Assembly (NCBI RefSeq): GCF_002161675.1
Contig: NZ_NFIH01000028.1
Coordinates: forward strand, 1 to 33,142
Source: Pseudoflavonifractor sp. An44
Lineage (GTDB): Bacteria > Bacillota > Clostridia > Oscillospirales > Oscillospiraceae
Direction of reading: 5' to 3'
Length of the DNA stretch: 33,142 nt
The position numbers were made by a program, and so were the translations under genes. Of the stretch, positions 722-33,051 are shown in pieces; positions within the stretch are counted from its first letter, which is position 1, and the number at the start of each line of letters is the position of its first letter. The notes under the pieces were generated by a model. The model had not been told where the DNA came from. It was given only the letters and a program-made list of their open reading frames with translations, and did no database searches.

Positions 722-1256
722 GGCGCAAACCAGCGCCCCCGCCGGGGACGCTCCGCTGGGCCCGATTTCTCCCCGATGAGAAATCGGGGAAAGAATCGCC
801 AAAGGCGGGGCCTTCCCCCGCCTTGTGGAATCCACCCCGCGGTACTGGCTGTCCCTGCGTGCTCCTCTTTTCGGCCCTTGGACGGGTGGGGTCACATGGA
901 TGGCATGGAAGTTCCACAGAATACACCTGCTTCTGTGGAAACTTGTACTTCTATCGCCGGGGCCTTACCCGGGTGAGCCGCTGTTCCCAGCTATCGGCGG
1001 CGGGAACGCCGCTTCTCCGGGGTGAGGCCCTGGAAGGAGAGGCACCATCTTACAGAGAAGGGGGCGCTTCCCATAGACTTGCCAGGCCATCCATGTGACC
1101 CCACCAGGGCCTGGGCCGACCGTAGGCTTGACGCAGGTCCAGCCTCGTACCCCAGGGAGGTCCTTAGGGGGGAACGCCCTAAGCGGGTTTTGGTTCCTTT
1201 TGACCGAGCAAAAGGAACCCCCAGCGGGAAGCGTCCCCACCAGGCTGGCAAGCCTG
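722..1256. repeat. Large palindromic intergenic element, copy A1
   Basis: About 535 bp of non-coding sequence shared with 8522-9065, 20241-20764 and 32548-33051. Ends are imperfect inverted repeats (744-760 against 1220-1238). Internal parts are also inverted: the 19 bp at 885-903 recur exactly inverted at 1087-1105, and GTTCCC (983-988) mirrors GGGAAC (1002-1007), so the whole copy is one imperfect palindrome centred near 995. The left terminal hairpin is 761-771/778-788 with loop CCCGAT; the right one is 1192-1202/1209-1219 with loop ACCGAG. Inner hairpins follow, such as GGCGGGG/CCCCGCC at 804-822. Open frames inside are not conserved between copies, so I see no gene in 563-1339. Confidence 0.88.
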
Positions 1257-2436: not shown

Positions 2437-3114
2437 TCACTTGATCTGGTAGTCCTTGCCAAACTGCAAGTCGTCAAACCGGCGGGTAGCATCCAGATAC
2501 AGATCGTCCACGGGGTCGTTCTTGGGCTGCTGGGATTGCTGGAGGGGCTGAGAAATGGTGGGCTCCTCCACTTCCTCCTCCTCAGAGGTGAGGTCCTCCA
2601 CGGGGGTGGTGGGCCCTTCCGGGACAATGGACTGGGCCATGGCGGCCTGAGCCATCTCGGGGGGGACCATCTGGCCCAGACGGGACAGGTAGTCCAGCTC
2701 CTCCTGGTGGAGGGCGTGGAGCTTCATGACGTAGTCCGCCGTGGCCTTCTGGGCCTGCTGGAGCCGGAACTCCTCTGCGGCGATCTCCGCCTCCAGCTTG
2801 GATTTGCGAGCCTGAGCCTCCTGGGTGGCGTCCTGCTCCAGCTGGGTCTTCTTCTTCTCCGCGTCGCTGACCATGGAGTCGGCCATCTGCTGGGCAGCCA
2901 GCAGGGTCTTACGCATGGCCACGTCGGTGGCCCGGTACTCTTCGATGGAATCGGAGAGCACCTTCAGCTTATTTTTCAAAATGGTGTTGTCGTTGTACAG
3001 TGCGGTGTAGTCCTCGGTGAGCTGATCGAGGAACTCATCCACCATGGTCATGTTGTAGCCGCCAAAGGTCGCTTTGGCAAAGACATGGCTGGCTACCTCC
3101 TGCGGAGTCATCAT
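2437..3114 (-). CDS. divIVA: DivIVA-domain cell division/polarity protein
   Basis: 225 residues. The N-terminus (TPQEVASHVFAKATFGGYNMTMVDEFLDQL) is the DivIVA lipid-binding domain: bacterial DivIVA/GpsB proteins begin with P-x-D/E-I..K.F...GY...EVD.FL. A long coiled coil follows (about residues 30-150, rich in E, K, A, Q), then an acidic, Pro/Gln-rich tail. DivIVA assembles at negatively curved membrane, at septum and poles, and recruits division or wall-synthesis partners. The ATG at 3114 has AAAGGAG upstream; a second ATG directly follows. It is the last gene of the yggS-sepF-divIVA run, 49 bp after sepF. The ylmG and ylmH genes that usually lie between these genes in Firmicutes are absent. 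Confidence 0.92.
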   Translation of the reverse strand: MMTPQEVASHVFAKATFGGYNMTMVDEFLDQLTEDYTALYNDNTILKNKLKVLSDSIEEYRATDVAMRKTLLAAQQMADSMVSDAEKKKTQLEQDATQEAQARKSKLEAEIAAEEFRLQQAQKATADYVMKLHALHQEELDYLSRLGQMVPPEMAQAAMAQSIVPEGPTTPVEDLTSEEEEVEEPTISQPLQQSQQPKNDPVDDLYLDATRRFDDLQFGKDYQIK

Positions 3115-3163
3115 TGTGCAAGTCTCCTTTATTTCTATTTCTCACAACAAACAAAACCGGGGC

Positions 3164-8309: not shown

Positions 8310-8389
8310 GTAGGGGCCGTGGCTTGCCCGGCCCGTGGCTACCCTGGCATTGCCTTGGGGGATTCGGGAGGGGCAAGCCCCTCCCCTAC
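8310..8389. repeat. GTAGGGG short palindromic repeat, copy B2
   Basis: An 80-bp unit bounded by GTAGGGG and CCCCTAC; contains the hairpin GGAGGGGCAAGCCCCTCC-type near its right end. It is the inverse of the copy at 17938-18017, with only a few base changes. Confidence 0.85.
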
Positions 8390-8448
8390 CGCAGCGTAGC
8401 AAGATGGTGCAGAAAAAGCATCTGACAACGGGAACGCCGTACTGAAAA

Positions 8449-8521: not shown

Positions 8522-9065
8522 GGCTTGCCAGCCTGGCAGGGACGCTCCGCTGGGCCCGATTTCTCCCCGATGAGAAATCGGGGAAAGAATCGCCAAAGGC
8601 GGGGCCTTCCCCCGCCTTGTGGAATCCACCCCGCGGTACTGGGTGTCCTTGCGTCTTTCTCTTTTCAGCCCTGGGCCCGGTGGGGGCACATAGATGGCTT
8701 ACCGTTCTATGGTTTGCACTCACTTCTCTGTTCATGTGTCCTTCTACTGCCAGGGCCTTACCCTGGTGAGCCGCTGTTCCCAGCTATCGAGAGGCCGGCA
8801 TCCGGCGGCGGGAACGCCGCATCCCCAGAGTAGGCCCGGACGTGGAAACCAACCAGCGATAGGGCCAGCTGCCCAGGGTGGCCTGGTGTGGTGGCACAAA
8901 CAGGGGCCACAGCAAGGGTAACGGGCCGAATAGAGACTTGACGCAGTTCCAGCCTGGTACCCCAAGGGAGGTCCTTAGGGGGGAACGCCCTAAGCGGGTT
9001 TTGGTTTCTTTTGCCCGCTCAAAAGAAACCCCCAGCGGGAAGCGTCCCCGCCAGGCTGGCAAGCC
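8522..9065. repeat. Large palindromic intergenic element, copy A2
   Basis: 544 bp, the copy with the clearest ends: 8522-8554 and 9031-9065 are inverted repeats of 33 and 35 bp differing by one base and a 2-bp gap. Left hairpin 8555-8565/8572-8582, loop CCCGAT. Right hairpin 9003-9013/9020-9030, loop CCCGCT, which is exactly complementary to AGCGGG at 8993-8998. No target-site duplication is obvious. No conserved reading frame inside. Confidence 0.88.
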
Positions 9066-17873: not shown

Positions 17874-17937
17874 ATAGTGATGAATGAAAAATGAAGAATG
17901 CAGGCCCTTGGATTGGCCAGACTCCCGGTGACCCGTT

Positions 17938-18017
17938 GTAGGGGAGGGGCTTGCCCCTCCCGAATCCCCCGGGGCAATACCAGGGTAACCACGGGCCGGG
18001 CAAGCCACGGCCCCTAC
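17938..18017. repeat. GTAGGGG short palindromic repeat, copy B3 (inverted)
   Basis: 80 bp, the inverse of 8310-8389 with few changes. It follows a short AT-rich unit (17874-17900) resembling the ends of the 14009-14218 insertion. Confidence 0.85.
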
Positions 18018-18048
18018 CACAGCACCACAGGGGGTGAGTCCATGCTTC

Positions 18049-18143
18049 CGGCGGCGGGAACGCCCTAAGCGGGTTTTGGTTTCTTTTGCCCGCTCAAAAG
18101 AAACCCCCAGCGGGTAGCGTCCCCACCAGGCTGGCAAGCCTGA
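18049..18143. repeat. Deletion derivative of the large palindromic element (A5)
   Basis: Only the right arm remains: hairpin 18078-18088/18095-18105 with loop CCCGCT, partner AGCGGG at 18068-18073, and the right terminal repeat. It is joined to a stretch of the element's centre (CGGCGGCGGGAACGCC) at GGGAACGCC, a string present both in the centre and in the right arm of full copies, which suggests recombination between those two sites. Confidence 0.75.
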
Positions 18144-18208
18144 TACAGGGACCGTGGAATGCTCCATTCTTCTGTGATGGTTGATGCCAGGATGGGACAA
18201 ATCCCGTC

Positions 18209-18237: not shown

Positions 18238-18243
18238 GGCTCC

Positions 18244-18487
18244 AATATGCGAAGACGGAGATAAGTACCCAGGTGTGGAAGGTATTTAAGAGAGAGGATG
18301 GTCGGTGCAAATCCTCACCTTTGCCCTGTGGGAAGGCCCTCCTGAGCTGTGACCCCAACGGGAGACCCTAGTAGGCGTCACCGGCCCCCGCCGTTACCGG
18401 GTGAGAGTGCGCACATACCCTGTGCGAATTCAGGTGGAACCACGGACATTTTGTTCGCCCTGAGCCGCTGGCTCAGGGCGTTTTTCT
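18244..18487 (+). promoter_or_regulatory. Glycine T-box riboswitch
   Basis: The conserved T-box sequence AGGTGGAACCACGG is at 18432-18445 and is followed by a strong terminator. Upstream are AGATAAGTA (18259-18267 region), a GGTCGGTGCAAATCC stem III element, and a GAA-GGT-A stretch in which GGT (18281-18283) is a plausible glycine specifier codon. Uncharged tRNA-Gly would bind specifier and T-box, favouring the antiterminator and glyQS expression. The segment between AGTA and the specifier looks short, so the Stem I fold and specifier are tentative. Confidence 0.88.
18456..18487 (+). terminator. T-box-controlled terminator
   Basis: CGCCCTGAGCC (18456-18466) pairs fully with 18470-18480, loop GCT, followed by TTTTTCTTT. 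Confidence 0.92.
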
Positions 18488-20202: not shown

Positions 20203-20240
20203 GGAAAAGCCTGTGCTTCTTCCCTGTGTGCGCCGGGGTG

Positions 20241-20764
20241 CAGCGCCCCTGCCAGGGACGCTCCGCTGGGCCCGATTTCTCCCCGATGAGAAATCGGGGA
20301 AAGAATCGCCAAAGGCGGGGCCTTCCCCCGCCTTGTGGAATCCACCCCGCGGTACAAGGCCGTTCCTGCGGTGGTTTTCAGGCCGGGCCGAAGAGCACGG
20401 ACCATACCAAGAAAGTAAAAAGCACTGTTTTTCTGCATCGCTGCTGAGAAAGTGCAGGTTTCTCCTGGTTTCGGCCCTTTCTGGTCCACCCGGCCGACGG
20501 CGGCCGGGAAGCGGCCGCATACCACCTAGACTTGAGGCCCTGGCAGGTGTAGCACACCCTTACTTCGTAATCACGCATTGTCCTGAGAAATGCTCAGCCA
20601 TCTCTGTGACCCTGCCAGGCCCAGGGCCGACTACGGCCCCACCGCATAAAACAAAATAAAACCCTTGGGGTTTCAAAAGGGGCGAGCCCCTTTTGTGGCT
20701 TTTCGTCCATTTTGGCCAGTCAAAATGGACCCCAGCGGAGCGCGTCCCCAGGCTGGCCAGCCTG
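20241..20764. repeat. Large palindromic intergenic element, copy A3
   Basis: About 524 bp. The left arm is the same as in A1 and A2 (hairpin 20271-20281/20288-20298, loop CCCGAT). The right arm has the same plan but different sequence: hairpin 20705-20714/20721-20730 with loop GCCAGT, four bases of which pair with TGGC at 20696-20699, and a second hairpin 20674-20695 (CAAAAGGGG/CCCCTTTTG). The right terminal repeat 20731-20762 mirrors the left end. The centre has diverged. Confidence 0.82.
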
Positions 20765-24419: not shown

Positions 24420-24800
24420 TTTCATGTTAATTTCTAGTATCTCATAACGATGACTCCAATAGCTTGAGGCTTGGAAAATCCACATTTCTAGAGAGGAAAT
24501 TTCTCTTCCCACTACAAGGTCGCTGACCCAAATGCGAAAGCCGTGGGTTTCTCTGCTTTACCCGTGCGACTCTCCGCACAGCATTCCTTTCTGTAAATAA
24601 ATGCTGAATGAGTAAAATGGTCATCCCTTGACTTTTATGGCCATTATGGCTATCATGTAAGAAGCAAAGGAACAGACAGCCACAAGATGGTCTGTCGCAA
24701 CGGTGAAGCACGGTGTCGGTCCAGTTTCGGTGCAGTGTGGAGTTTTATGAGGGGTTGTGCAACAACCACAGACTGGATAGCCGAAAGGCGAAAGAAAATG
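24420..24800. other. Intergenic stretch without a supported gene
   Basis: On the minus strand 24520-24580 contains a hairpin-rich string (GTGCGGAGAGTCGCAC at about 24564-24579) resembling the stem often found near the end of group II intron coding regions. Open frames here lack ribosome sites. Possibly debris of a mobile intron; not certain. Confidence 0.3.
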
Positions 24801-24802
24801 CT

Positions 24803-24844
24803 AAAAGGACTCTGCGTGTGGGAACACAGGCAGAGTCCTTTTAA
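24803..24844. terminator. Hairpin upstream of the glycosyltransferase remnant
   Basis: AAAAGGACTCTGC (24803-24815) pairs with 24830-24842, plus inner GTGTG/CACA pairing. It could stop rightward transcription or act as a leader hairpin; the T run is only four long. Confidence 0.55.
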
Positions 24845-31700: not shown

Positions 31701-32357
31701 CAGCTGCTGGAAGGCATCTGGGGCCTGGGCCTGGTTCAGGGCGACAAGGACGAGCTGAACCGTCTCATCGCCAAGGCCGAGGACATGATGGCCAACGCCG
31801 ACAAGTACGTGGAGACCAACTGGCAGCAGCTGGTGGACGCTCTGGCCGCCGCCCAGGACGTGGCCGCTGACGGCGACGCCATGGATGAGGACATCAAGCC
31901 TGTGGCTCAGGACCTGCTGGACGCCATCCTGGCTCAGCGCTTCAAGGCTGACAAGTCCATCCTGGAAGACCTCATCGGCAAGGCCGAGGGCATCGACCTC
32001 ACCGGCTACACCGCCGAGTCCGTGGCCACCTTCCGCACCGCTCTGGCTGCCGCTCAGGCTGTGATGGCTGACGCCGCTCTGTCTGAGGACGACCAGAAGG
32101 TTGTGGACGACGCCGTGGCCGCTCTCCAGAGCGCCATGGACGGCCTCACTGCTGGTGGCGCCCCCGAGACCACCGACAAGCCTGAGGTCACGGATAAGCC
32201 CGAGAGCACCGATCAGCCTCAGGCCACCGAGAAGCCCGCTGAGAAGCCTGCTCAGACTGGCGACTCCGCTCAGCTGATGCTGTATGTGGCCGCTCTGGCC
32301 GCCGCTGTGATGGCCCTTGGTACTGTCACCGTGGTGCGCAAGCGCCGCGGCAACTAA
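25722..32357 (+). CDS. Giant sortase-anchored GH2 beta-galactosidase-like protein
   Basis: 2211 residues from MRNRNKRVVSTGLALSML (signal peptide ending near HTMAAEP); AAAGGA lies 12 nt upstream. Order: GH2 sugar-binding and Ig-like domains (to about 450), TIM barrel with acid/base Glu562 (STGNEN) and nucleophile Glu630 (MCEYDHAMGN), a LamG/ConA-like domain (about 706-868) set inside the barrel, the barrel's last part (YGGDTGDWRNNSGNFCQNGLV, split by the LamG from GGFIWDWVDQ), a Bgal small-chain domain (about 1081-1366), a helical segment, a second LamG (about 1452-1670), an Ig-like domain, a carbohydrate-binding-like domain (about 1760-1930), FIVAR repeats (about 1940-2145), a Pro/Thr linker and the sorting signal KPAQTGD plus hydrophobic span and RKRRGN. 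It likely cleaves beta-galactosides of host or diet glycans at the cell surface; substrate is inference. Confidence 0.92.
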   Translation: MRNRNKRVVSTGLALSMLLSMIPLHTMAAEPGNTQAGYKDPWNASASIPVLEKKDAITSPTFTYKEWTGEDGNEDVFAVNREEASMFATSSVIYDSVDAALDSAINFNKEASGYVQYLTGKNDADWSLRVVKNDTIAKESYANFYETDYTPDDSWSSGLQLPASWTYWGLDYPIYTNTQVPWQEDNTSSDTAPLAPVNYNPVGMYRKTFTLDEGLSTLKERNGRIYLNFQGVEAAYYVYLNGHAVGYSEDTYAPHSFDITDYLVDGENLLAVEVHKFCDGTWFELQDMFKDGGIFRDVYVYGAPQVHLNDYFVTTDLDETYENANLDLSVTVENESAQAASGYKVDVRVYNEDGSMFVNGMTAEVPTIDAGSSQTVDLSKYVQDPELWSAEHPNLYYLVVSLYKDGGAYLGSMSQQLGFREIEFTRTEVDGSGNRTTQDSEYKPITINGQPLVFRGTNRHDTDPVYGKAVSKEVMEKDVELMKQYNLNAIRTSHYSNDDYLYYLCNKYGLYMMAETNLESHQLMNNEGKQVLFKELAMDRTVTTFNRLKNVSAIVSWSTGNENYYKSNANYADYMFYDLIWYFKDNDPTRPVHSESSNKANGTDMGSNMYPSVSTIQGEARNNMPYVMCEYDHAMGNAVGSIKEYWDAVRSGDNMLGGFIWDWVDQARVVTYPTSYELADYPGSVAGAQSVNKEPGEGALSDTSLVNGYVGFEDTDGAYNAALSGDRKAFTVEVILKPTEFKANEVFAAKGDKQFALKLNGDNNLEFFVYNGSWNSLVVEQSKLGDDFLNNWHQLVATYDNGTMKVYLDGQEIGSKSGPTSISSSGALLSLGYQSDYSGRQFAGEISMGRFYNVALTQDEIRAQNSATPAIGKDDERVLLWAEMSSIQEKEDGTYNYYAQDYAYYNEEIYGQALDGKFFGYGGDTGDWRNNSGNFCQNGLVTPDRVAQPELEEVKYQYQSLWFTASEADLMSGQVQVKNENGFTNLNEYHVVWQLMESGTVIGEGTVNADVAPQTTQTITIPYAQYMPKETKDGAEYYLNISVQLKSDTLWAPAGHEVAHEQFQVPANVEQVALTPSANEVVVDDSAEDVIAITGEGFSFNIDKASGAISNYVYNGETLLTQGPVPNFWRAPVNNDNGNFDWAWQNAGKDAQVSGDIQVIQANGFTSIAFTQTFPNMNGLSQTVVYTVDGSGAVTLDLTVDATKTSTSRSRFMRIGTTMVLPEGYENVSWYGNGPVEAMWDRESFARVGEYSSTVNELFFPYLDTEDTGTLTGVKWFTVTNDQSNYAMAIAAQDTVEAQALHFTADDLTQARHPYELTYENETYLSINYRSQGTGNASCGPDVLGQYTLPTSKTYSYSYTMVPYTVKDADLYDVTAPFRTASVVDQDSAVKELKEAIESLVVTSVDQEAEVNKLVNSYNGLSDALKEQLADAKAHLDEQVEVLETMKADPYYHAVVADQSANGFDVDVTEKYDTVSMGMDAEQGTYMSGHFLVDNEGAKEAMNEVIGGSNSFTMEAVIRPNVYDTSGSSFNMIMGKGDSSAAFRISGGNLYFFTYNGSNWMPTPPDGEASNFPMNNELVQQWLRVAAVYDGSNGGTISVYLNGELSSTRSNVGEVQPSDLYLGIGMCPDTGRTSMSDFSSVRLYSSALDTEALKADDETNLAREDVALWYDFSQINYTTTTEVEVVEDLPAYTYLGEKPALPDAISVSVNGGEPFDMNVTWNLDNLNLDQVGTYEISGSLANGQTVKHTMAVVPDDVVYFVDSGATNFTSLGQILVDANQDTIRNADADVAYTAENGWGYLNGENTGTDNGSTGSAYDTLRHMTKEATGKSLSYQFDGLKAGTYNVYVGYQDPWTQWSTTRPTTITLNQGETNLATLNGVELCTATPAYVTMENVEVAADGTVTLTLAPEKTGDSNYDVLVSYILITAVGGEEPEPSGVNKGLLEKTVAYAETLSTDGVTDTAKKAFEDALANAKAVLADADATQDEVNAAWNQLLEGIWGLGLVQGDKDELNRLIAKAEDMMANADKYVETNWQQLVDALAAAQDVAADGDAMDEDIKPVAQDLLDAILAQRFKADKSILEDLIGKAEGIDLTGYTAESVATFRTALAAAQAVMADAALSEDDQKVVDDAVAALQSAMDGLTAGGAPETTDKPEVTDKPESTDQPQATEKPAEKPAQTGDSAQLMLYVAALAAAVMALGTVTVVRKRRGN

Positions 32358-32483: not shown

Positions 32484-32510
32484 GTGGTAGGGGCCGTGGC
32501 TTGCTCAGCC
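32484..32510. repeat. Fragment of a GTAGGGG repeat (B4)
   Basis: GGTAGGGGCCGTGGCTTGCT matches the left end of B2; the rest has been lost. Confidence 0.5.
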
Positions 32511-32547
32511 CACTTTGCCGGGGGCCTGTTCTTCTCCGATGTCTCAG

Positions 32548-33051
32548 GCGCAGACCAGCGCCCCAGCCGGGGACGCTCCGCTGGGGTGACTTTCTGGGTG
32601 GGCAGAAAGTCACCAAAGACCCACCAAAGGCGGGGCCTTCCCCCGCCTTGTGGAATCCACCCCGCGGTACGGGATGCACCTGCGTCCTCCTGGTTTCGGC
32701 CCTGGTCCTGGATGGGTCACATAGATGGCTTGGAGGCACGATAGACAGCACCTACTTCTCTGCCGGATGGTGCTTCTACTCCCCAGGGCCTTACCCTGGT
32801 AAGCCGCTGTTCCCAGCGATGGGTAGCCAGGCTCCCGGCGGCGGGAACGCCGCACACCGGGGTGAGGCCCTGGAAACAGAGGCACAGTCTTACAGAGAAG
32901 GGAATGCTTTCCATAGATGTACCAGAGCATCCATGTGACCCCACCAAGGCCAGGGCCGGCCATAGAATTGACGCAGTTCCAGCTTCGTACCCCAAGGGAG
33001 GTCCTTAGGGGGGAACGCCCTAAGCGATTCTTTCCCCCATTTCTCATCGGG
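32548..33051. repeat. Large palindromic intergenic element, copy A4, cut by an IS30-type element
   Basis: The left terminal repeat (32569-32586) matches A1. The left hairpin has a new sequence, 32586-32596/32603-32613 with loop GGTGGG, and its partner hexamer has changed to match, CCCACC at 32620-32625. The centre is close to A1. The right arm ends at 33051 inside a hairpin: 33024-33051 is the inverse of A1's left inner arm (771-798) with one mismatch, and stops after the loop ATCGGG, where IS30-type sequence begins. Confidence 0.82.

Follow-up and report, generated by a model that had tools for sequence, protein, structure and literature searches.

The window, a 33,142-nucleotide stretch of Pseudoflavonifractor sp. 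An44, is contig 21 of a 2.75 Mb genome. The GlyRS that it encodes is closest to Oscillospiraceae (91% to MAGs, 89% to Intestinimonas and 87% to Flavonifractor, in a search that may omit the nearest genomes). Repeated elements occupy positions ~700-1260 (A1), 8522-9064 (A2), 17950-18150 (the right part of an element), 20212-20760 (downstream of glyS) and 32527-33051 (right end broken). ORFs inside the elements overlap on both strands and, judged by eye, arise by chance. Other features lie nearby. A T-box leader (18243-18465) is found upstream of glyS, with the truncated element directly before it. An Rfam search identified a candidate drum RNA at 24698-24806 (88 bits). Two large ORFs, paralogues of each other, have their C-terminal tails at 1-562 and 31823-32357 (86% identity over 300 nt), and an element follows each. 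GTAG-tagged palindromes (GTAGGGG...GGGCTTGCCC...) at 2310-2361, 8341-8392, 17933-18019 and near 32486 appear by eye to be REP-like, a separate repeat family beside the elements. The ends of the elements carry the following features.

761-798, plus strand: left module of A1; stem 761-771/778-788, loop 772-777 (CC+CGAT), mirror spacer 789-794 (GAAAGA), partner ATCG 795-798; the outward (pyrimidine-first) strand is minus
1184-1219, plus strand, pyrimidine-first: right module of A1; CGGG 1184-1187, TTTT 1188-1191, stem 1192-1202/1209-1219, loop ACCGAG 1203-1208 (three pairs)
8522-9064 (approximate ends), no strand assigned: element A2, with outer inverted repeats GGCTTGCCAGCCTGGCAGGGACGCTCCGCTGGG ... 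CCCAGCGGGAAGCGTCCCCGCCAGGCTGGCAAGCC
8555-8592, plus strand: left module of A2; stem 8555-8565/8572-8582, loop 8566-8571, spacer 8583-8588, partner ATCG 8589-8592
8995-9030, plus strand: right module of A2, the feature under study; CGGG 8995-8998, TTTT 8999-9002, stem GGTTTCTTTTG 9003-9013 / CAAAAGAAACC 9020-9030, loop CCCG+CT 9014-9019
18070-18105, plus strand: right module of the left-truncated element; CGGG 18070-18073, TTTT, stem 18078-18088/18095-18105, loop CCCGCT 18089-18094
20271-20308, plus strand: left module of the element downstream of glyS; stem 20271-20281/20288-20298, loop 20282-20287, spacer 20299-20304, partner ATCG 20305-20308
20696-20730, plus strand: right module of the same element; TGGC 20696-20699, TTTT, C, stem GTCCATTTTG 20705-20714 / 20721-20730, loop GCCA+GT 20715-20720
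32585-32623, plus strand: left module of the last element; stem 32585-32596/32603-32614, loop GG+TGGG 32597-32602, spacer AAAGA 32615-32619, partner CCCA 32620-32623
33025-33051, plus strand: right module of the last element, without its 3' arm; CGAT-TCTTT-C-CCCCATTTCTC-ATCGGG, read by eye

When reverse-complemented, the right end of an element is the same module as the left end. In left orientation the order is outer repeat GGGACGCTnCCGCTGGG, stem, loop NNwxyz, stem, spacer and z'y'x'w'. The partner tetranucleotide lies just inside the element at each end. Left-orientation loops read NN+CGAT (partner ATCG) or NN+TGGG (CCCA). Right-end loops, reverse-complemented, read NN+CGGG (CCCG) or NN+TGGC (GCCA). 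These four sets account for the genome itself, and others contribute CGGC/GCCG, CGCG/CGCG, TGTG/CACA, CGTG/CACG, CCCA/TGGG, AGAT/ATCT, TGTA/TACA and TGAT/ATCA. The outer two bases of left loops vary (CC, TC, CT, AG, GC, CG, CA, GG, AT, AC), and the loop/partner pair adjacent to the junction is the one most often lost. Read on the outward strand, the module comprises S1a (four bases), L1 (4-9 nt of pyrimidines), a stem of ~10-14 bp with its loop, and the 3' arm. The first four bases of the loop pair with S1a, and the upper stem holds the mirror of L1. Several ends have a second hairpin inside the tetranucleotide (for example GGCGGGGGATTTCGATTTCCCCCGCC), followed by AATC-CCC, and a GC-rich hairpin often lies outside the module (both among L169, L171, L172, L173, L176 and L178). 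In a further subfamily (L030, L036, L042, L047, L048) the loop has 4 nt, CCGC, with partner CCG in a region CCGCC; here loop and partner are near-identical, not complementary.

A preliminary description of this DNA had proposed a pseudoknot at both ends of the element, with six-base loops complementary to nearby hexamers. Every pair that it quoted can be located: CCCGCT (9014-9019) with AGCGGG (8993-8998), the same hexamers at 18089-18094 and 18068-18073, GGTGGG (32597-32602) with CCCACC (32620-32625), CCCGAT (772-777) with ATCGCC (795-800) and GCCA (20715-20718) with TGGC (20696-20699). The exception that it named, the A1 right loop (1203-1208), does form just three pairs with CGGG (1184-1187). 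The loops pair with nearby bases as claimed, but the conserved core is 4 bp, not 6. Because the two outer loop bases vary, the six-base matches combine the four conserved pairs with two that lack conservation. A hairpin with loop pairing is indeed present at each end, and both are one module, inverted.

To count pairing, we parsed modules from the stem and an exact mirror only, with 6-nt loops, the gap between tract and third strand fixed at 6 nt and loop pairing unused. This main set contains 85 distinct modules. All four loop pairs form in 54, three in 15 and fewer in 16; permutation gave a mean of 7.75 and a maximum of 16 fully paired modules (2000 permutations). The neighbouring two loop bases pair in just 8/85. 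Several of the 16 lowest, part of the 31/85 without full in-register pairing, look by eye to be paired one base out of register. Shuffled sequence (2.03 Mb) gave 0 module parses. With each loop/partner combination counted once, complementary ones number 12 of 34, against a permutation mean of 1.0 and a maximum of 6 (5000 permutations).

Covariation was measured in an alignment of 47 distinct modules of equal geometry, with the pseudoknot written out, against shuffled and slid controls that ignore kinship. Paired cells make up 95.9%, compared with 69.8% in shuffles, and 192 cells are changed on both sides, compared with 63.1. The covariation score is 0.668, against 0.191 for shuffles and 0.06-0.13 for slid versions. 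Stems are 98.6% paired, which is partly by construction; the loop pairing is not, and the loop/partner helix alone is 88.2% paired with both-side changes in three of its four pairs. Two further measures discriminate less. Pairs with a both-side change number 11 versus 9.6 (10/500 shuffles as high), and further pair types show no excess (28 versus 27.4; 259/500 as high). The preliminary description had staked its case on covariation at loop and partner positions, and covariation is what this alignment shows when set against shuffles. Its statement that stems change in sequence while staying paired is likewise borne out. Hence, the reading as covariation of the kind left by selection, and as a pseudoknot, is supported with three qualifications: the core is 4 bp, the ends are a single inverted module, and a mirror spacer had been overlooked.

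A later set gave a similar picture. Here, 29 loci from a class-wide search yielded 21 modules, two of them from one palindrome (L355). These were reached by a model without loop pairing, yet one that keeps the sequence preferences of its training rows. At least three loop pairs form in 13/21 (permutation mean 2.15; 0/5000 as high), and 407 kb of shuffled sequence gave 0 parses. We consider the pairing between loop and tetranucleotide to be solid. As in an H-type pseudoknot, the loop pairs with a flanking single strand, and the two covary.

The overlooked spacer mirrors the pyrimidine/purine tract of the stem (TTTCT/TCTTT, TTTTCTT/TTCTTTT, TTTTCC/CCTTTT). On the outward strand, the tract that precedes the stem repeats in reverse order the one within the 5' arm. 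In a parse by stem and loop pairing alone (101 rows, many not modules), TTTCT tracts fit a mirror at 5/5 positions and a direct copy at 3/5; the TTTTCTT tract of L172 fits at 7/8 and 4/8, respectively. L178 fits a mirror at only 4/6, and some rows are in another register. With loop pairing unused, asymmetric 5-nt tracts gave 31 mirror matches and 1 same-direction copy (163 hairpins), and TTTCT accounts for 27 of the 31. Mirror-to-direct ratios for longer asymmetric tracts were 7:6 at 6 nt (142 hairpins), 6:1 at 7 nt (75 hairpins) and 6:2 at 8 nt (80 hairpins), where direct matches include homopolymer runs and register alternatives. Mirror tracts of other sizes include TTTTCTT, TTCTTTT, TTTTCT, TTTCTT, TTTTCC, TTTTTC, TTTTCTTT, TTTCTTTT and CTTTTCT. 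The gap between tract and third strand is 5 or 6 nt in 21/21 modules of the later set, for which 5-7 was allowed. The mirror rule is strong.

No ordinary protein site fits a mirror repeat, whereas a third strand parallel to the purine arm does. Hence, we infer a triple strand. At the level of sequence, the third strand mirrors the purine tract of the duplex, as a triple helix requires. L1 is therefore likely to form a third strand along the stem's major groove. Telomerase-type RNA pseudoknots contain U.A-U major-groove triples. They share with the module the order S1a, pyrimidine L1, S2a, S1b, L3, S2b, and an L1 parallel to the S2 purine strand. They differ in that S1 is here ~3-6 bp, L3 is short, the setting is bacterial repeat ends and C is tolerated in the tract.

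We then considered which strand folds. On the outward strand, stems of the main set contain 929 Watson-Crick, 6 G.T, 1 A.C and 2 other pairs. Across 122 distinct stems, some of them redundantly parsed or from decayed copies, the corresponding numbers are 1293, 20, 14 and 17. Sorting by hand the stems with a single odd pair gives G.T in 10 lineages and A.C in 3. Because the loop pairs with a one-sided run of bases, and because wobble pairs are asymmetric, a single folded strand is indicated. The data suggest that this is the outward one, as RNA or single-stranded DNA. The same two properties speak against a role for double-stranded DNA structure, where a cruciform or H-DNA would matter as a protein site or replication block. 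Such structure would suit the perfect palindromes with AT-rich centres, the mirror tracts and the scarcity of odd stem pairs (of which the 98.6% pairing is partly by construction). Overall, we think it very improbable.

The modules are numerous. Probes for the two ends, with the best 40 of 112 (left) and 40 of 84 (right) candidates scored, gave at least 40 left-end and at least 42 right-end matches in the genome. A right-end covariance model gave 78 matches at E≤1e-4 (150 candidates scored). With 150 candidates scored per genome, the same model gave 50, 21, 85, 39 and 41 matches in the congeners G123, G001, G006, G311 and G315. Across the order, a left model matches 16/295 genomes at E≤0.01, with ~3 expected by chance. 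Across the class, a mixed model matches 36/391 at E≤0.05; since ~20 of the 36 are expected by chance, the many weak matches need the pairing test.

The design also recurs further afield. An approximate query matched 82 plasmid records at E≤10, 23 of them covering at least 80%. Well-supported matches (E≤0.01) are from Burkholderia, Paraburkholderia, Aeromonas, Pasteurella, Pseudoalteromonas and Ilyobacter, and seven Paraburkholderia plasmid records have at least 40 places each. Matches in Variovorax and Parabacteroides plasmids are weak by score, and partial matches in Leptospira and Enterococcus are probably chance. Diaphorobacter (E 4e-7) and Aureibacter (E 0.4) gave further matches. Inspection by eye or script showed loop pairing in Pasteurella, Paraburkholderia, Pseudoalteromonas, Diaphorobacter, Aureibacter, Ilyobacter and Parabacteroides; the B. 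cepacia copy L276 is without it. The module design is found in Pseudomonadota and, from few copies only, in Fusobacteriota and Bacteroidota. In the latter two the mirror is trivial, because their few loci have T-only tracts. E. coli gave no module match, and 0 of 49 matching phage records cover 80% of the query. Exact patterns, which were too strict, gave 0 matches in viral contigs, 398 genomes of the phylum and three plasmid records.

Like bacterial MITEs, the elements are short, non-coding and intergenic, with inverted terminal repeats and tens of copies. What sets them apart from MITEs is the covarying pseudoknot hairpin, with its mirror spacer, at their ends; in addition, neither a parental transposase nor a target duplication was found. 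Lineages differ in the interior and have the end module in common. In P. caribensis MBA4, all 16 short copies examined have a core of 504-517 bp between their inverted modules. In 20-base bins, modules of these copies are 97-100% conserved and interiors 73-98%, although selecting the copies by module similarity biases this comparison towards conserved ends. Two P. caribensis slots have the element at the corresponding place in related strains as well. Hence, movement there is not recent.

Orientation at shared slots differs. Read by eye, the left flank of the A2 slot is the same in the sister genome G006, and the element there points the other way. Downstream of glyS, also by eye, the genome and G311 are oriented differently from G123 and G315. 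Slots with both orientations could reflect inversion by recombination between repeats. Upstream of glyS, four congeners have no insertion and that of the genome itself is composite. At the compared slots (A2 and the glyS flanks), no target duplication was readable and no simple empty site was obtained. In contig 4 of G006 (~105.4-105.9 kb), another repeat family (CTCCCTTTACACAAGGGAGG and related) is inserted relative to the window.

No parental transposase with module ends was found among 16 module-bearing genomes, 42 Y1/RAYT loci and two long P. caribensis copies. The latter, examined out of four as candidate autonomous copies, were rejected, being split by ORFs that inspection named IS256-like and IS5-like. 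The only ORFs in the 910 bp interior of L172 overlap, and we attribute them to chance.

A Y1 HUH transposase of RAYT, TIRYT or IS200/IS605 type would be one possible mover, and pairing of the tetranucleotide would then correspond to that of guide and cleavage site. The logic of hairpin plus tetranucleotide invites the comparison. The likeness to IS200/IS605 ends lies in a subterminal hairpin with tetranucleotide pairing nearby (PMC6006769). The difference is that there a guide at the hairpin foot pairs with the cleavage site and here the loop pairs, and that the module ends are inverted and have no Y1 gene tied to them. The ends of IS200/IS605 elements lie on one strand, unlike these inverted ends. 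Y1_Tnp matches 7/16 module-bearing genomes; in the other 9 the Y1 TnpA gene of an IS200/IS605 system was not found. The match in the window's own genome is weak, with a stop inside.

REP/BIME-RAYT systems and TIRtrons with TIRYT resemble the elements in being high-copy intergenic hairpins in inverted pairs. Moreover, some ends contain GGGGTGAC, which agrees with the TIRYT consensus GGGGWSAS (PMC3733652). Each of the seven Paraburkholderia records with at least 40 module places carries one RAYT-like gene, and of 42 Y1/RAYT loci one, L141, contains a hairpin resembling the module, ~760 bp away from its gene. The other 41, scanned with an exact-mirror parse, are without a module. Among 28 matching records, we inspected 10 RAYT-like loci; in 0 of the 10 do module-type inverted repeats flank the gene, and 4 have GGGTCAG-type inverted repeats. 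L340 shows a partial likeness, since the inverted repeats AGGGACGGTTCTTTTTG around its RAYT-like gene resemble the outer repeat plus 5' arm, without the hairpin. The GTAG/GTGG of REP sequences is absent from the 5' foot of the module, where the tetranucleotide varies with the loop. The idea of TIRYT/RAYT as mover, which GGGGWSAS had suggested, gained no support from the scans of Y1 loci, the Y1_Tnp counts or the RAYT-like loci. A Y1 mover is not supported and is largely contradicted; we rate it improbable.

The module may instead act as RNA, either as part of a structured RNA or as an orientation-independent 3' boundary, with copies that spread passively. Whichever the direction of transcription, the downstream end would show the pyrimidine-first pseudoknot and then a GC-rich outer hairpin. 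The GC hairpin beside several modules and the asymmetry of G.T over A.C agree with this. On either strand, folding of the whole element also exceeds that of shuffles by far (z -8.5, -9.2). We compared the loci with Rfam, in which no family covers the module. The genome's own elements gave no match at gathering score, and permissive matches were far below it (best E 0.0036, 31 of 196 bits). Among 36 other loci, a family touches or adjoins the module in two. Bp1_684 (RF02421), a candidate sRNA, lies at 3032-3143 in Burkholderia L276, starting within the 3' arm and running outward. TwoAYGGAY (RF01731) lies just inside the module of Pseudoalteromonas L278, in which the outer hairpin loop, ATGGAC, is itself an AYGGAY loop. 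A permissive search of five loci found TwoAYGGAY twice in L287, on opposite strands with one copy ending in S1a/L1, and just below gathering in L284. By eye, the strand of the family is the outward strand of the module in L276, L278 and the L287 copy that ends in S1a/L1.

That these candidate RNAs lie next to the module or extend into it, on its outward strand, speaks for an RNA role and raises its probability. Its discoverers rated TwoAYGGAY a probable RNA from human gut, gamma-Proteobacteria and Clostridiales (PMC2864571), and the taxa listed there fit the module spread seen here. However, among module elements TwoAYGGAY reaches gathering score in Pseudoalteromonas only, in 1/24 module-bearing genomes or records. 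The genome studied here has no match at that score, and A1 and A2 have none at the permissive cut-off either. Neither Rfam model covers the loop/tetranucleotide pairing or the mirror spacer. An RNA role alone also leaves unexplained the inverted pairs around lineage-specific interiors. We regard it as a serious contender that falls short of being our first choice, and it is compatible with mobile ends.

Our best reading is that the elements are MITE-like and mobile or invertible, with the RNA-level role close behind; both can hold. Tentatively, we propose that the modules are the structured ends of a non-coding element, the folded strand most likely being recognised by a trans-acting enzyme. 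Both ends are the same module, inverted, and the outward strand would carry the 3' end at each transposon end. It would fold as an H-type pseudoknot, joining the first four loop bases to S1a. In the major groove L1 would run as third strand (T/U.A-T/U, C+.G-C), and the loop pairing would keep it in place. The enzyme would recognise this fold at each end and so move, invert or maintain the element. Stem and loop/partner covariation, the mirror rule, copy number, differing interiors, differences of orientation and the excess of G.T over A.C count in favour of mobile ends. Against them count the missing partner gene, the 9/16 genomes that match the left model and not Y1_Tnp, the raw 20 G.T to 14 A.C, the 4-nt-loop subfamily, the 31/85 modules not fully paired and the 7:6 ratio of 6-nt tracts.

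In searches of the open-licence literature we found no published description of the module, and among the papers listed for sequence strings none was relevant by title. A wider claim is possible, if doubtful: that these are a widespread class of pseudoknotted triple-helix ends, of folded RNA or single-stranded DNA. Such ends would delimit non-coding elements, mobile or invertible, in several phyla; TwoAYGGAY and Bp1_684 would belong to them or lie next to them, and an enzyme with no prior known use of such ends would act on them. Taken as a sequence rule, the loop tetranucleotide plus mirror spacer picks out a structured module in several phyla; it also predicts that bacteria contain a natural nucleic-acid triple helix. 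Confirmation would unite many unannotated intergenic repeats with at least two orphan RNA candidates in one system and would point to the protein that reads the modules.
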